In this document: piece after piece, positions 28,453 through 62,564 of the stretch
Layout: each line of letters begins with the position of its first letter
Position numbering within the stretch: position 1 is the first letter of the stretch
Source of the DNA: Pelagibacterales bacterium SAG-MED20
GTDB taxonomy: Bacteria; Pseudomonadota; Alphaproteobacteria; Pelagibacterales; Pelagibacteraceae
NCBI GenBank assembly: GCA_014653975.1
Contig: JACWDR010000001.1
Location: 90,001 to 154,000 of the forward strand
Direction: 5' to 3'
DNA: 64,000 bases
Program-made: the position numbers and the translations under genes
Notes under the pieces: generated by a model
What the model was told of the DNA's origin: nothing
What the model saw: the letters and a program-made list of their open reading frames with translations, nothing else
Database searches by the model: none

Positions 28453-29778
28453 ATGGCTAATGTCTTAAGGATTAATAAAAAAATTGCATCCTATGATAAA
28501 AAAATAATAGTTGATGGAGATAAAAGTCTATCAATAAGATGGGTGTTGTTGGCGTCGCAATCATCAGGAAAGTCTAAAGCATATAATCTTTTAATGTCAG
28601 AAGATGTTAATGCAGCATTAGACTCTATAAAAAAACTGGGAATAAAAGTTAAGTTACATAAACACTTTTGTGAGATTTACGGAAAAGGAATTAACGGTTT
28701 CAAATACAAAAAAAATTTAATAATTAACGCAAGAAACTCAGGAACACTTGGAAGACTTCTCCTCGGCCTGCTGGTTAAATCAAATAAAAAGATTAAGTTT
28801 GTTGGAGACAAAAGTTTGTCTAAAAGAGATTTTTCTAGAATAACTAAACCACTCAAAAAATTTGGTGCTAAATTTTATCATGAAACAAAAAATAAATTAC
28901 CTTTGTCAATCTTAGGTTCGGAGACTATAAAAGGAATAAATTATTTAGAAAATAAAGGCTCAGCTCAATGTAAGAGCAGTGTAATGCTTGCAGCTCTTAA
29001 CGCTTCAGGCACAACCTCAATAAAAGCAAAAAAATCAAGAAATCATACAGAACTACTTTTTAAACACTTAAAGATACCTATAAAAATTAAGAGATCTAAA
29101 AAATTTGATTATATTGAAATCAAACAACCAAAAAAAATTAAAGCATTCAATTATCATATACCTGGAGATATAAGCTCAAGTGCTTTTTTCATGGCGCTAA
29201 CTACATTGTCTAATAATTCAAAACTAACAATTAAAGATGTAAACACAAACCCCTCGAGAATAGGTGTAATTAAAATTTTAAAAAAAATGGGTGCTAAAAT
29301 ATCATTTAGAAATCAAAGGAATTATAATGGTGAAAAGATTGCGGACATATTAATAAAAAGTTCTAAAAAACTTAAGTCAATAAATTGCCCTCCAGAACTA
29401 AATAGTAGTGCTATAGATGAGTTTTTAATAATTTTTTTAGTTGCTGCAAAAGCAAAAGGAATTTCTCATTTCAAAGATTTATCTGAACTTAACCAAAAAG
29501 AAAGTCCAAGATTGAATTTGGGATCTAAAATTTTAAATATAATGGGAATTAAAACAGAACTGTCTAAAGACTCAATTAAGATATATGGTCAACCAAATTT
29601 AGAGATAAAAAAAACCATTATTGTGAAAGATTACTTAAAAGATCATAGAGTTTTTATGATGAGCACAATTGCAGCTTTAACTTGTGGAGGAAATTGGCAA
29701 ATTCATGATAAAGATTCTGTTAATACTTCCTTTCCATCTTTTTTAAAAATAATTACTAAATTAAAAAATAAACACTAA
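28453..29778 (+). CDS. aroA: 3-phosphoshikimate 1-carboxyvinyltransferase (EPSP synthase)
   Basis: ORF; GDKSLSIRWVLLASQ, RNSGTLGRLLLG, SAQCKSSVMLAAL, NQKESPRL, DHRVFM. Confidence 0.93.
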   Translation: MANVLRINKKIASYDKKIIVDGDKSLSIRWVLLASQSSGKSKAYNLLMSEDVNAALDSIKKLGIKVKLHKHFCEIYGKGINGFKYKKNLIINARNSGTLGRLLLGLLVKSNKKIKFVGDKSLSKRDFSRITKPLKKFGAKFYHETKNKLPLSILGSETIKGINYLENKGSAQCKSSVMLAALNASGTTSIKAKKSRNHTELLFKHLKIPIKIKRSKKFDYIEIKQPKKIKAFNYHIPGDISSSAFFMALTTLSNNSKLTIKDVNTNPSRIGVIKILKKMGAKISFRNQRNYNGEKIADILIKSSKKLKSINCPPELNSSAIDEFLIIFLVAAKAKGISHFKDLSELNQKESPRLNLGSKILNIMGIKTELSKDSIKIYGQPNLEIKKTIIVKDYLKDHRVFMMSTIAALTCGGNWQIHDKDSVNTSFPSFLKIITKLKNKH

Positions 29779-30431
29779 TGAAAATAAAAAATAAAATTAA
29801 AGTTGCTATTGACTCTCCTGCTGCTGCTGGTGCTGGAACTCAAGCAAAATTAATTTCTAAACATTATAATTTATTTTATCTAGATACTGGAAAAATTTAT
29901 AGGTTAATTGCTAATATAAAAATCACTATTCCAAAAAAATATAACTATTCTTTAATAAAAAAGAAAATGAAAAAACTTAGCATGAAAGATCTACAAAATA
30001 AAAAATTATTAACTGATGAGGTTGGAACTATGGCCTCTATAATATCAAAAGATAAAAAAATAAGAAAACTTGTTCATGCTTTTCAAATTAAAAGTGCATA
30101 TGATCCGCCAGAGAAATACAATGGATCATGCTTAGACGGAAGAGATATAACTTATAAAATAATTCCTGATGCTAATTTTAAATTTTTTATAACAGCAAAT
30201 ACAAAAACAAGAGCTTTAAGGAGATATAAAGAGTTAAGAGTGTTAAATAAAAAAATATCTTTTAATGAAGTCCTAAAAAGCATCAAAAAACGTGATAAAA
30301 GCGATTATAACAGAGCAATATCGCCCCTAAAGAAAACTAAAGATTCGATCTTGATTAATACAACAAATTTAACTAAAAGATCATGCTTTTTAAAAATTAA
30401 ACAAATTATAGATAGGAAACTAAAAGCTTAA
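29778..30431 (+). CDS. cmk: Cytidylate kinase with altered P-loop
   Basis: ORF in aroA-cmk-rpsA order; VAIDSPAAAGAGTQAK, YLDTGKIYRLIA, CLDGRDITY, RALRRYKEL, KRDKSDYNRAISPLK. Confidence 0.9.
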   Translation: MKIKNKIKVAIDSPAAAGAGTQAKLISKHYNLFYLDTGKIYRLIANIKITIPKKYNYSLIKKKMKKLSMKDLQNKKLLTDEVGTMASIISKDKKIRKLVHAFQIKSAYDPPEKYNGSCLDGRDITYKIIPDANFKFFITANTKTRALRRYKELRVLNKKISFNEVLKSIKKRDKSDYNRAISPLKKTKDSILINTTNLTKRSCFLKIKQIIDRKLKA

Positions 30432-32158
30432 TGGAAATTTATAAAGACCTTTCAAACCCTGCCTCAAAAGAATTCGAACAACTATTAAATTCTCAGTTTA
30501 CAAAAACAGCTAATCTTGAAGAAGGAAAAATTATCACAGGTTTAGTAAATAAAGTGACAGATAATTTTGTCTTTCTTGAAGTACCAGGATTAAAATCTGA
30601 ACCGATTCTAGATATCAATGAATTAAAAAGCATGGGCATGCTTGATAAAGCAAAAGTAGGTGAAAAAATTTCAGTTCTTCTTGAAAGATTAGAAGACAAA
30701 AAAGGAGAGGTGTTGGTGTCAGCTTCTAAGGCTCAAAAAATTCAAGGCTGGGATAAATTAGTTGAGGCTTATGAAAAAAATGAACCAATCATGGGTAAAA
30801 TTACTGGCCGTGTTAAAGGTGGATGTATAGTGGAGCATATCGATACTGGATCTTTAATGTTTTTACCAGGATCACAAATTTCTGACAAACCTTTAAAAGA
30901 TATAAGCCATTTAATGAATGAACCACAAAAATTTGCTTTAATTAAATTAGATAAAATTAGAGGAAATGCTTGTGTTTCTAGAAGAGAAATTATTTCTTCA
31001 TTTAAAAAAGAAGACAAAATTAAAATTGTTGAAAAATTTAAAATTGGAGATGTTATTAAAGGTGCTGAGGTAAAGGGTTACAGTTCATTTGGTTGTTTTT
31101 TTAGTGTTAATGGTGAACTAGATGTTTTAGTACATCTTCAAGAAATATCGTATTCAAGAGTAAATCATCCTGATGAAGTTTTTAATATTGGAGAAAAACA
31201 TGACTTATTAGTAATATCTGTAGATAAAGAAAAGTTACAAGTTGGTTGTTCTGTTAAACAACTTTCTCCAGATCCTTTTGAGCATATTACAAATTATGAA
31301 TTAAATAAGCCCTATAAAGTTAAAGTTGTTAAGTTAATGGATTTTGGCGCTTTCTGTGAACTAGAGCCTGGTCTTTCAACTTTACTTCACTCAAGTGAAT
31401 TAAGTTGGAGCAAAAAAAATATATCAGCAAAAAAAATGTTTAGGGTTGGTGATGAAATTGATTGTATAATTACTGAAATAGATAAAGAAAAAAGAAGAGT
31501 TGCTATCTCTCATCGTCTTACAACTCAAAACCCTTTCGAAATTTTTGAAAATAAGTATCCAGTTGGATCAGAAGTTGAAGGTGAGGTTGCTAGTAAAAAT
31601 GAATATTCAATTTTTATAAAAATTGAAGATTTAGATATAGATGCTTTCTTACACTGTAATGATCTTACATACCTAACAAATGGAGAAGAAGAGCTTGCCA
31701 AACATAAAATTGGTGACAAATTAAAAGTTAAAGTTTTAGAAATTAAGATAAACGAACAAAAAATAAGAGTTGGTTTACGACAAACTCAACCAGACCCTTT
31801 TGATTGGTTTAAAGATAAAAAAATTAAACAAGCAATTACTGTTAAAATCATTTCAAGTGATAATAAGGGTTTAGTTGTTAGACCTGAAGGTTGTGAGATG
31901 GATTTTAATATTAAAAAATCTGCAATAGCTATCAACGCAGCTGATGCTAGACCCGCAAGATTTACAGGTGGAGAAAGAATTGATTGTGCTATAGCTGAGT
32001 TAGATTTTAGCAAAAGAAAAGCAACATTAAGCATCAAATTACTTGAAGAAATTGAAAGAAAGGTTGCTTTAGATACTTATGGCTCTGAAGCGAGTGGTAA
32101 AAATTTACCTTTCTCTTCATTATCTGACGATCTAGAAAAAAAGAAAAAAGAAGAATAA
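30431..32158 (+). CDS. rpsA: 30S ribosomal protein S1
   Basis: ORF of 575 aa with repeated S1 (OB) domains, follows cmk. Confidence 0.96.
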   Translation: MEIYKDLSNPASKEFEQLLNSQFTKTANLEEGKIITGLVNKVTDNFVFLEVPGLKSEPILDINELKSMGMLDKAKVGEKISVLLERLEDKKGEVLVSASKAQKIQGWDKLVEAYEKNEPIMGKITGRVKGGCIVEHIDTGSLMFLPGSQISDKPLKDISHLMNEPQKFALIKLDKIRGNACVSRREIISSFKKEDKIKIVEKFKIGDVIKGAEVKGYSSFGCFFSVNGELDVLVHLQEISYSRVNHPDEVFNIGEKHDLLVISVDKEKLQVGCSVKQLSPDPFEHITNYELNKPYKVKVVKLMDFGAFCELEPGLSTLLHSSELSWSKKNISAKKMFRVGDEIDCIITEIDKEKRRVAISHRLTTQNPFEIFENKYPVGSEVEGEVASKNEYSIFIKIEDLDIDAFLHCNDLTYLTNGEEELAKHKIGDKLKVKVLEIKINEQKIRVGLRQTQPDPFDWFKDKKIKQAITVKIISSDNKGLVVRPEGCEMDFNIKKSAIAINAADARPARFTGGERIDCAIAELDFSKRKATLSIKLLEEIERKVALDTYGSEASGKNLPFSSLSDDLEKKKKEE

Positions 32159-62051: not shown

Positions 62052-62564
62052 ATGAATTTAAAAAAAAACCTCGTTTTTTTAGGCATGATGGGGTCTGGAA
62101 AATCCTCTATAGGCAAATTAGTTTCGAAAAAACTAAATATTAAATTTATTGATATAGATAATATAATTGAAGACATGATGAATATGAGTATTTCAAATAT
62201 ATTTAAAGAAAAAGGAGAAGATTATTTTAGAAACCTAGAAGAGAAAGTTACACTTAAAAATTTAAAAATGAATGATACTGTTATTGCTTTAGGTGGTGGC
62301 AGTTTTATTAATGAAAAAATTAGAAAAGAAATTTTAACTAATCACTTATCTTTTTGGCTTTTTTGGGATGATACCATCCTAATTAAAAGAATTAAAGGTA
62401 GTAAGAAAAGGCCATTGGCTGTTAAATCAAAAGATCATGAAATAAAACAGTTAATTAAAAAACGTTCAAAAATATACCAAAAAGCAAGATTTAAAATAAA
62501 CTGTAATAAACTTACAAAAACTGAAATAGTAAAAAATATTATCAATATTTATGAAAGCAATTAA
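62052..62564 (+). CDS. aroK: Shikimate kinase
   Basis: ORF; VFLGMMGSGKSSIGKLV, FIDIDNIIEDM, ALGGGSFI; overlaps aroB start. Confidence 0.95.
   Translation: MNLKKNLVFLGMMGSGKSSIGKLVSKKLNIKFIDIDNIIEDMMNMSISNIFKEKGEDYFRNLEEKVTLKNLKMNDTVIALGGGSFINEKIRKEILTNHLSFWLFWDDTILIKRIKGSKKRPLAVKSKDHEIKQLIKKRSKIYQKARFKINCNKLTKTEIVKNIINIYESN

Follow-up and report, generated by a model that had tools for sequence, protein, structure and literature searches.

P-loop NTPases are commonly defined by one catalytic residue, the lysine of the Walker A motif. Details about its contacts have been reported: it touches the backbone carbonyls of the residues five and six positions before it (K-5 and K-6) (PMC9599734), and in the cytidylate kinase (Cmk) of Thermus, the P-loop Lys15 bridges the beta-phosphates of ADP and CDP, while Arg38 binds the CMP phosphate (PMC7259600). 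In fungal Kti12, the natural replacement K14L weakens the binding of MANT-ATP, with a Kd of 25 uM versus 1.5 uM (PMC7363723). In the gp28 terminase of phage Mu, Lys64 was proposed to complement Leu70 (Mitchell and Rao 2004, as cited in PMC7363723). Among open-access papers, we found none on the Cmk of SAR11, on a lysine-less Cmk, or on a lysine-less NMP kinase. The SAR11 Cmk described here is a variant of the known Cmk family.

The cmk gene of the window and its Walker A loop

The window is a stretch of 64,000 nucleotides from the genome of Pelagibacterales bacterium SAG-MED20. Overlapping stop and start codons couple its cmk gene to aroA upstream and to rpsA downstream. The features concerned are the following:

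28453 to 29778, forward strand: aroA (EPSP synthase), conserved upstream neighbor (ORF, Pfam)
29778 to 30431, forward strand: cmk, lysine-less cytidylate kinase of 217 aa (ATG ORF, Pfam and NCBIfam, structure model)
30431 to 32158, forward strand: rpsA (ribosomal protein S1), conserved downstream neighbor (ORF, Pfam)
29814 to 29840, forward strand: deviant Walker A loop SPAAAGAGT, residues 13 to 21 (codons, alignment)
29814 to 29816, forward strand: Ser13 (TCT) where Walker A has its first glycine (all 170 lysine-bearing Cmks have Gly here; 76/77 lysine-less Cmks have Ser)
29832 to 29834, forward strand: Ala19 (GCT) in place of the Walker A lysine (codons, alignment)

The product matches the Pfam family PF02224 over its whole length (142.2 bits against a cut-off of 26; E value, 2.4e-41), and its best NCBIfam model is TIGR00017 (cmk), with 135.0 bits, marginally under the cut-off of 135.55. 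The solved structures closest to it by sequence are those of Cmks. Furthermore, an AlphaFold2 model, for which 34 proteins of the window and the loci were used, reaches a mean pLDDT of 92.9, and its best 21 PDB matches are all Cmks, with a TM-score of 0.78 to the top one. The first-pass annotation had described the Cmk signatures outside the P-loop as intact, and we found all of them (DGRD, RALRRYKEL, and KRDKSDYNRAISPLK), together with the DTGKIYR motif. Its fold, its profile match, its substrate residues, and the place of its gene make the protein a Cmk; its Walker A motif does not fit the signature of the family.

Codons 12 to 21 read GAC TCT CCT GCT GCT GCT GGT GCT GGA ACT (D-S-P-A-A-A-G-A-G-T), which confirms the previously noted replacement of the P-loop lysine by alanine. 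The resulting loop departs from the Walker A pattern GxxxxGK[ST/G]T in the lysine, which is Ala, and in the first glycine, which is Ser. Among the two glycines noted earlier as changed, Gly13 alone is invariant in the family (100% of the 170 lysine-bearing Cmks); the remaining P-loop positions vary freely.

Distribution, copy number, and constraint

We aligned 247 distinct Cmks, collected from genome contigs and from the genomes of SAR11, of the Alphaproteobacteria, and of the phylum at large; 77 of them are lysine-less, 106 are lysine-bearing SAR11 sequences, and 64 come from outside SAR11 (170 lysine-bearing in total). The 77 sequences without the P-loop lysine belong exclusively to SAR11, with none among the 64 non-SAR11 Cmks, and derive from the isolate HTCC9565 (L005), complete genomes, single-cell genomes, and metagenome-assembled genomes. 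No lysine-less Cmk was present among eight Cmk-like contigs of IMG/VR, and a DNA pattern for the [A/G]GT loop, searched in 385 genomes of the class, occurred only in the window's own genome, apart from a match in G603 that is unrelated and interrupted by a stop. The loop is exactly SPAAAGAGT in 65 of the 77 Cmks, and the rest are small variants of it; the lysine position is mostly Ala, Gly twice (L099 and L097), and Ser once (L158). Moreover, positions 19 and 13 changed together. The most divergent sequence, L158 (G184), shows the loop ATAGSGSTS, NGRD for DGRD, and an altered LID tail, and could represent either an intermediate or a copy in decay.

When the P-loop columns and position 39 are left out of the alignment, the tree shows the lysine-less Cmks as monophyletic (support, 98; 99/97 in a careful tree), and no reversion to Lys occurs over the 11.2 substitutions per site of branch length in their clade. 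Since all of them fall in one clade, a single loss of the Walker A lysine, never reversed, accounts for every one. The clade covers the GTDB-style genera g1 and g9, both of which also hold lysine-bearing Cmks, so that the gene tree departs from the genus labels. Its nearest sister may be a group of AroA-Cmk fusions (support, 84/75) or genus g6. The Cmks of g6 feature a normal GPAASGK loop, yet they read DSGKLYR, with a lysine already at position 39. The fusion group, which may be the sister, consists of in-frame AroA-Cmk proteins of 655 to 672 aa with a canonical P-loop, found in g5, g7, and g11 (L114, L116, L129, L130, L131, L136, L137, and L140).

A second or canonical cmk elsewhere in the genome had been named beforehand as a check and, together with relaxed selection, as grounds for rejecting the idea of a functional variant, and none was found. 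This applies to the genome of the window (about 71% complete), where a weak PF02224 match at 62088 to 62351, inside 62052 to 62564, turned out to be the shikimate kinase AroK, with a normal GSGKS P-loop. Each of the complete lysine-less genomes (G012, G066, G067, and G072) contains one PF02224 gene and one full-length gene of the ADK family, and in G012 the sole match to the archaeal-type cytidylate kinase 2 (PF13189), considered as a backup, is cmk itself.

The lysine-less gene lies between aroA and rpsA in 74 of the 77 cases. In 18 related SAR11 genomes, a canonical cmk is found at a different locus (L100 to L107, L164, L166 to L168, and L170 to L175). We found aroA in 13 of these 18, and in all 13 (loci L266, L268, L269, L271, L272, L274 to L278, and L280 to L282), it is directly followed by rpsA, with no cmk between them. 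The two Cmk types were never seen together among the SAR11 genomes whose matches were listed in full. This either/or distribution is most simply understood if the lysine-less and the canonical Cmk share one job.

Some further observations concern the same locus. Beside two of the empty cmk sites, RpsA is 64% (L271, in G022) and 42% (L282, in G197) identical to that of the window, and in other relatives of the genus the identity is 70 to 85%. Five genomes, reported to be 87 to 99% complete, show aroA next to rpsA without cmk and no PF02224 gene anywhere (L267 in G173, L270 in G253, L273 in G192, L279 in G177, and L283 in G038); either sequence is missing or cmk is truly absent there. As to the apparent absence of cmk from some SAR11 genomes of 90% or higher completeness, aroA is missing too in seven of them, whose assemblies thus do not contain the locus.

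With regard to constraint, the substrate-binding and LID residues are located as follows:

30135 to 30146, forward strand: DGRD (residues 120 to 123), contacts to the CMP phosphate, cytosine, and Mg-bound water, kept (conservation; PMC7259600)
30219 to 30224, forward strand: Arg148-Arg149, LID-side arginines, kept in all (conservation)
30291 to 30314, forward strand: Arg172, Asp176, and Arg179 of the LID helix, kept in all (conservation)

R42, R96, Q103, G121, R122, D123, R148, R149, R172, D176, and R179 are present in 77/77 lysine-less Cmks (100%), and among the residues invariant in the family, K19 and G13 are the sole changes. The CMP-binding and LID residues (YR, R96, DGRD, RR, and R..D..R) are common to the 77 lysine-less and the 170 lysine-bearing Cmks, apart from slight differences in a few places. 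The lysine-less Cmks have a median pairwise dN/dS (Nei-Gojobori method, pairs with dS under 1.5) of 0.098, versus 0.135 for the lysine-bearing Cmks of SAR11. The lysine-less cmk is under ordinary strong purifying selection. These values and the retained catalytic residues agree with the initial judgment that the gene is not simply decaying; the two signs named in advance against it, relaxed selection and close relatives with a normal GKG P-loop, were not observed.

Position 39 and the active site

The basic residues that could be involved in replacing the lysine map to the following positions:

29883 to 29903, forward strand: DTGKIYR, NMP-binding loop and start of helix 2 (codons, model)
29892 to 29894, forward strand: Lys39 (AAA), candidate compensating lysine (Lys or Arg in 76/77 lysine-less Cmks)
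29919 to 29921, forward strand: Lys48, second basic residue of most lysine-less Cmks (94% versus 0% elsewhere)

The first-pass annotation took DTGA to be a fixed CMP-site motif and suggested that the lysine in DTGKIYR might be a relocated phosphate-binding residue. Position 39 is in fact variable: canonical Cmks have Leu, Ala, Ser, Thr, Lys, or Arg there. A basic residue is indeed conserved at this position where the Walker lysine is absent, in 76/77 sequences of single origin. However, Lys39 is no novelty tied to the loss, given that 37/106 lysine-bearing SAR11 Cmks, including most of one sister family, combine Lys or Arg at position 39 with a canonical P-loop, as against 3/64 among the other bacterial Cmks. 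Lys39 was thus at best a preexisting or easily gained residue that later became indispensable. The proposed covariation of the P-loop substitution with position 39 is likewise visible in these 76 sequences, but the single loss provides one independent contrast and no replicates, so that 76/77 does not equal 77 independent observations and a formal test cannot reach significance.

Within the lysine-less clade, position 39 became nonbasic once over 11.2 substitutions per site, whereas the sister family f2, which also has Lys or Arg at position 39, has three nonbasic tips over 8.2. These small numbers are suggestive of a stronger retention in the lysine-less clade. The sole exception is L108 (G026), which reads ETGMIYR (Met39) but possesses Lys34 and Arg48. 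The deepest lysine-less branch (L158, L127, L110, and L112) has the basic residue at position 39 and not Lys48, which is also missing in L093. Basic residues at positions 48, 186, and 208 became fixed in the lysine-less clade as well, although Lys codons come cheaply in these AT-rich genomes.

In the structure model, helix 2 begins at residue 38, and Lys39 lies one turn ahead of Arg42, the counterpart of the CMP-phosphate-binding Arg38 of Thermus Cmk. A long basic side chain one turn before this arginine would be reasonably placed to take over from the P-loop lysine. Furthermore, position K-6, whose carbonyl the lysine touches, is that of the Gly13-to-Ser change, which fits a coupled rebuilding of the loop.

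On these grounds we suggest, with a confidence that reaches an even chance, that the protein is the resident active CMP/dCMP kinase of a large SAR11 clade, in which one loss of the lysine went along with a rebuilding of the active site, Lys39 supplying the charge. The P-loop backbone, with Gly18, Gly20, and Thr21 kept, would still cradle the ATP beta-phosphate, and the LID arginines 149, 172, and 179, together with Arg42, Arg96, Arg122, and Asp123, would hold CMP and the transferred phosphate. Lys or Arg39, which the NMP-binding domain carries in the first turn of its helix 2, would reach into the space between the phosphates and give the positive charge by which the P-loop lysine normally bridges donor and acceptor. 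The replacement of Gly13 by Ser may represent a coupled change in that part of the loop which the side chain of the lysine usually braces. We infer both the kinase activity and the role of Lys39 rather than another residue. An active CMP kinase is highly probable, and compensation by Lys39 is plausible. The further proposition, that phosphoryl transfer proceeds without any Walker A lysine and with a bridging charge from the mobile NMP-binding domain, is put forward tentatively, at somewhat less than even chances.

Other explanations have to be considered. The enzyme could be an active CMP kinase in which no one relocated lysine takes part, provided that the LID and NMP-domain arginines, Mg2+, and the P-loop backbone suffice; its ATP affinity would perhaps be poorer, though tolerated at cellular ATP concentrations, and Lys39 would be incidental and partly ancestral. 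The natural K14L variant of Kti12 remains active when ATP is high, although none of its lysines is close enough to compensate (PMC7363723), and the SAR11 Cmks that have a basic position 39 beside a canonical P-loop, as well as Met39 in L108, point in the same direction. However, engineered K14A nearly abolished the ATPase of Kti12 (PMC7363723), and the SAR11 residue is Ala or Gly; the single loss of the basic residue at position 39, against three in f2, also argues, suggestively and on small numbers, for a role of this residue. We regard this explanation as rather unlikely. That Lys48, or another basic residue specific to the clade, acts as the compensator in place of Lys39 is very unlikely. 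Lys or Arg48 does distinguish the lysine-less Cmks from all the others examined, and L108 carries Arg48 where Lys39 was lost, but the residue is missing from the deepest branch and from L093, and, lying six residues past Arg42 on the same helix, it would lie on another face, further from the nucleotides.

It is also conceivable, if improbable, that the protein is no longer a conventional ATP-dependent CMP kinase and that it has become a regulatory or structural protein or uses another donor or acceptor. The lost residue is one regarded as essential for P-loop kinases, the loop is otherwise frozen, as if a new function had been fixed, and some bacteria survive without cmk, though with a growth defect (PMC3603445). 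Against this stand the invariant substrate-binding and LID residues, the complete genomes devoid of any other Cmk-like gene, and the substitution by a canonical Cmk in relatives that, in the fully listed genomes, never have both types. The altered donor or acceptor chemistry raised by the first-pass annotation found no positive evidence. Finally, the chance that we are dealing with an error in sequencing or assembly, or with a pseudogene in decay beside a second cmk, is negligible. The incompleteness of the window genome means that the absence of a second copy there proves little by itself, but the recurrence of the same P-loop change in 77 distinct sequences, among them those of isolate HTCC9565 and of complete genomes, and the dN/dS of about 0.1 refute both readings, and the other weak match of the window is AroK with its loop intact.

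Significance and comparison with known systems

A core nucleotide enzyme of very abundant bacteria has dropped the Walker lysine and yet stays strongly constrained. If the bridging charge does come from the mobile NMP-binding domain, the active site would be completed only upon closure of the acceptor domain, a different way of bridging donor and acceptor in P-loop kinases, and this natural solution would be fixed across a whole clade, in a housekeeping NMP kinase of abundant ocean bacteria. How essential the Walker lysine is, and what replaces it, becomes directly testable in a small soluble enzyme with lysine-bearing orthologues in close relatives. In particular, L108 (Met39), L099 and L097 (Gly19), and L158 (Ser19) are natural exceptions that bear on this question, and L108, with Met39, Lys34, and Arg48, is a ready-made natural test of compensation.

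Compared to canonical bacterial Cmks (E. coli 1CKE and 2CMK, S. aureus 2H92, and Thermus 3AKC), the SAR11 variant has the same fold, length, LID, and DGRD motif, all of the CMP-binding and LID arginines, and the same aroA-cmk-rpsA position. It is different from them in having neither the Walker A lysine nor the first Walker glycine and in the basic residue at position 39. Adenylate kinase (STGDMLR) retains the P-loop lysine and has Asp at the position equivalent to 39; the spacing from the P-loop Lys to GD or GK is 20 residues in both enzymes, with Lys39 presumably aligning with Asp33 of adenylate kinase.

The large terminases of phages, as cited in PMC7363723, share the idea of a relocated phosphate-binding lysine; according to that account, the terminase lysine shifts inside the P-loop, whereas the SAR11 candidate comes from helix 2 of the NMP-binding domain. 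Kti12 of the Eurotiomycetes, with K14L, likewise presents a natural loss of the Walker lysine throughout a clade, with its function reported as kept (PMC7363723). Different from the SAR11 Cmk, however, Kti12 is an ATPase or tRNA modification factor and not an NMP kinase, in which the lysine is replaced by Leu rather than Ala, no compensating lysine is present, and the change is coupled to a long linker (PMC7363723).
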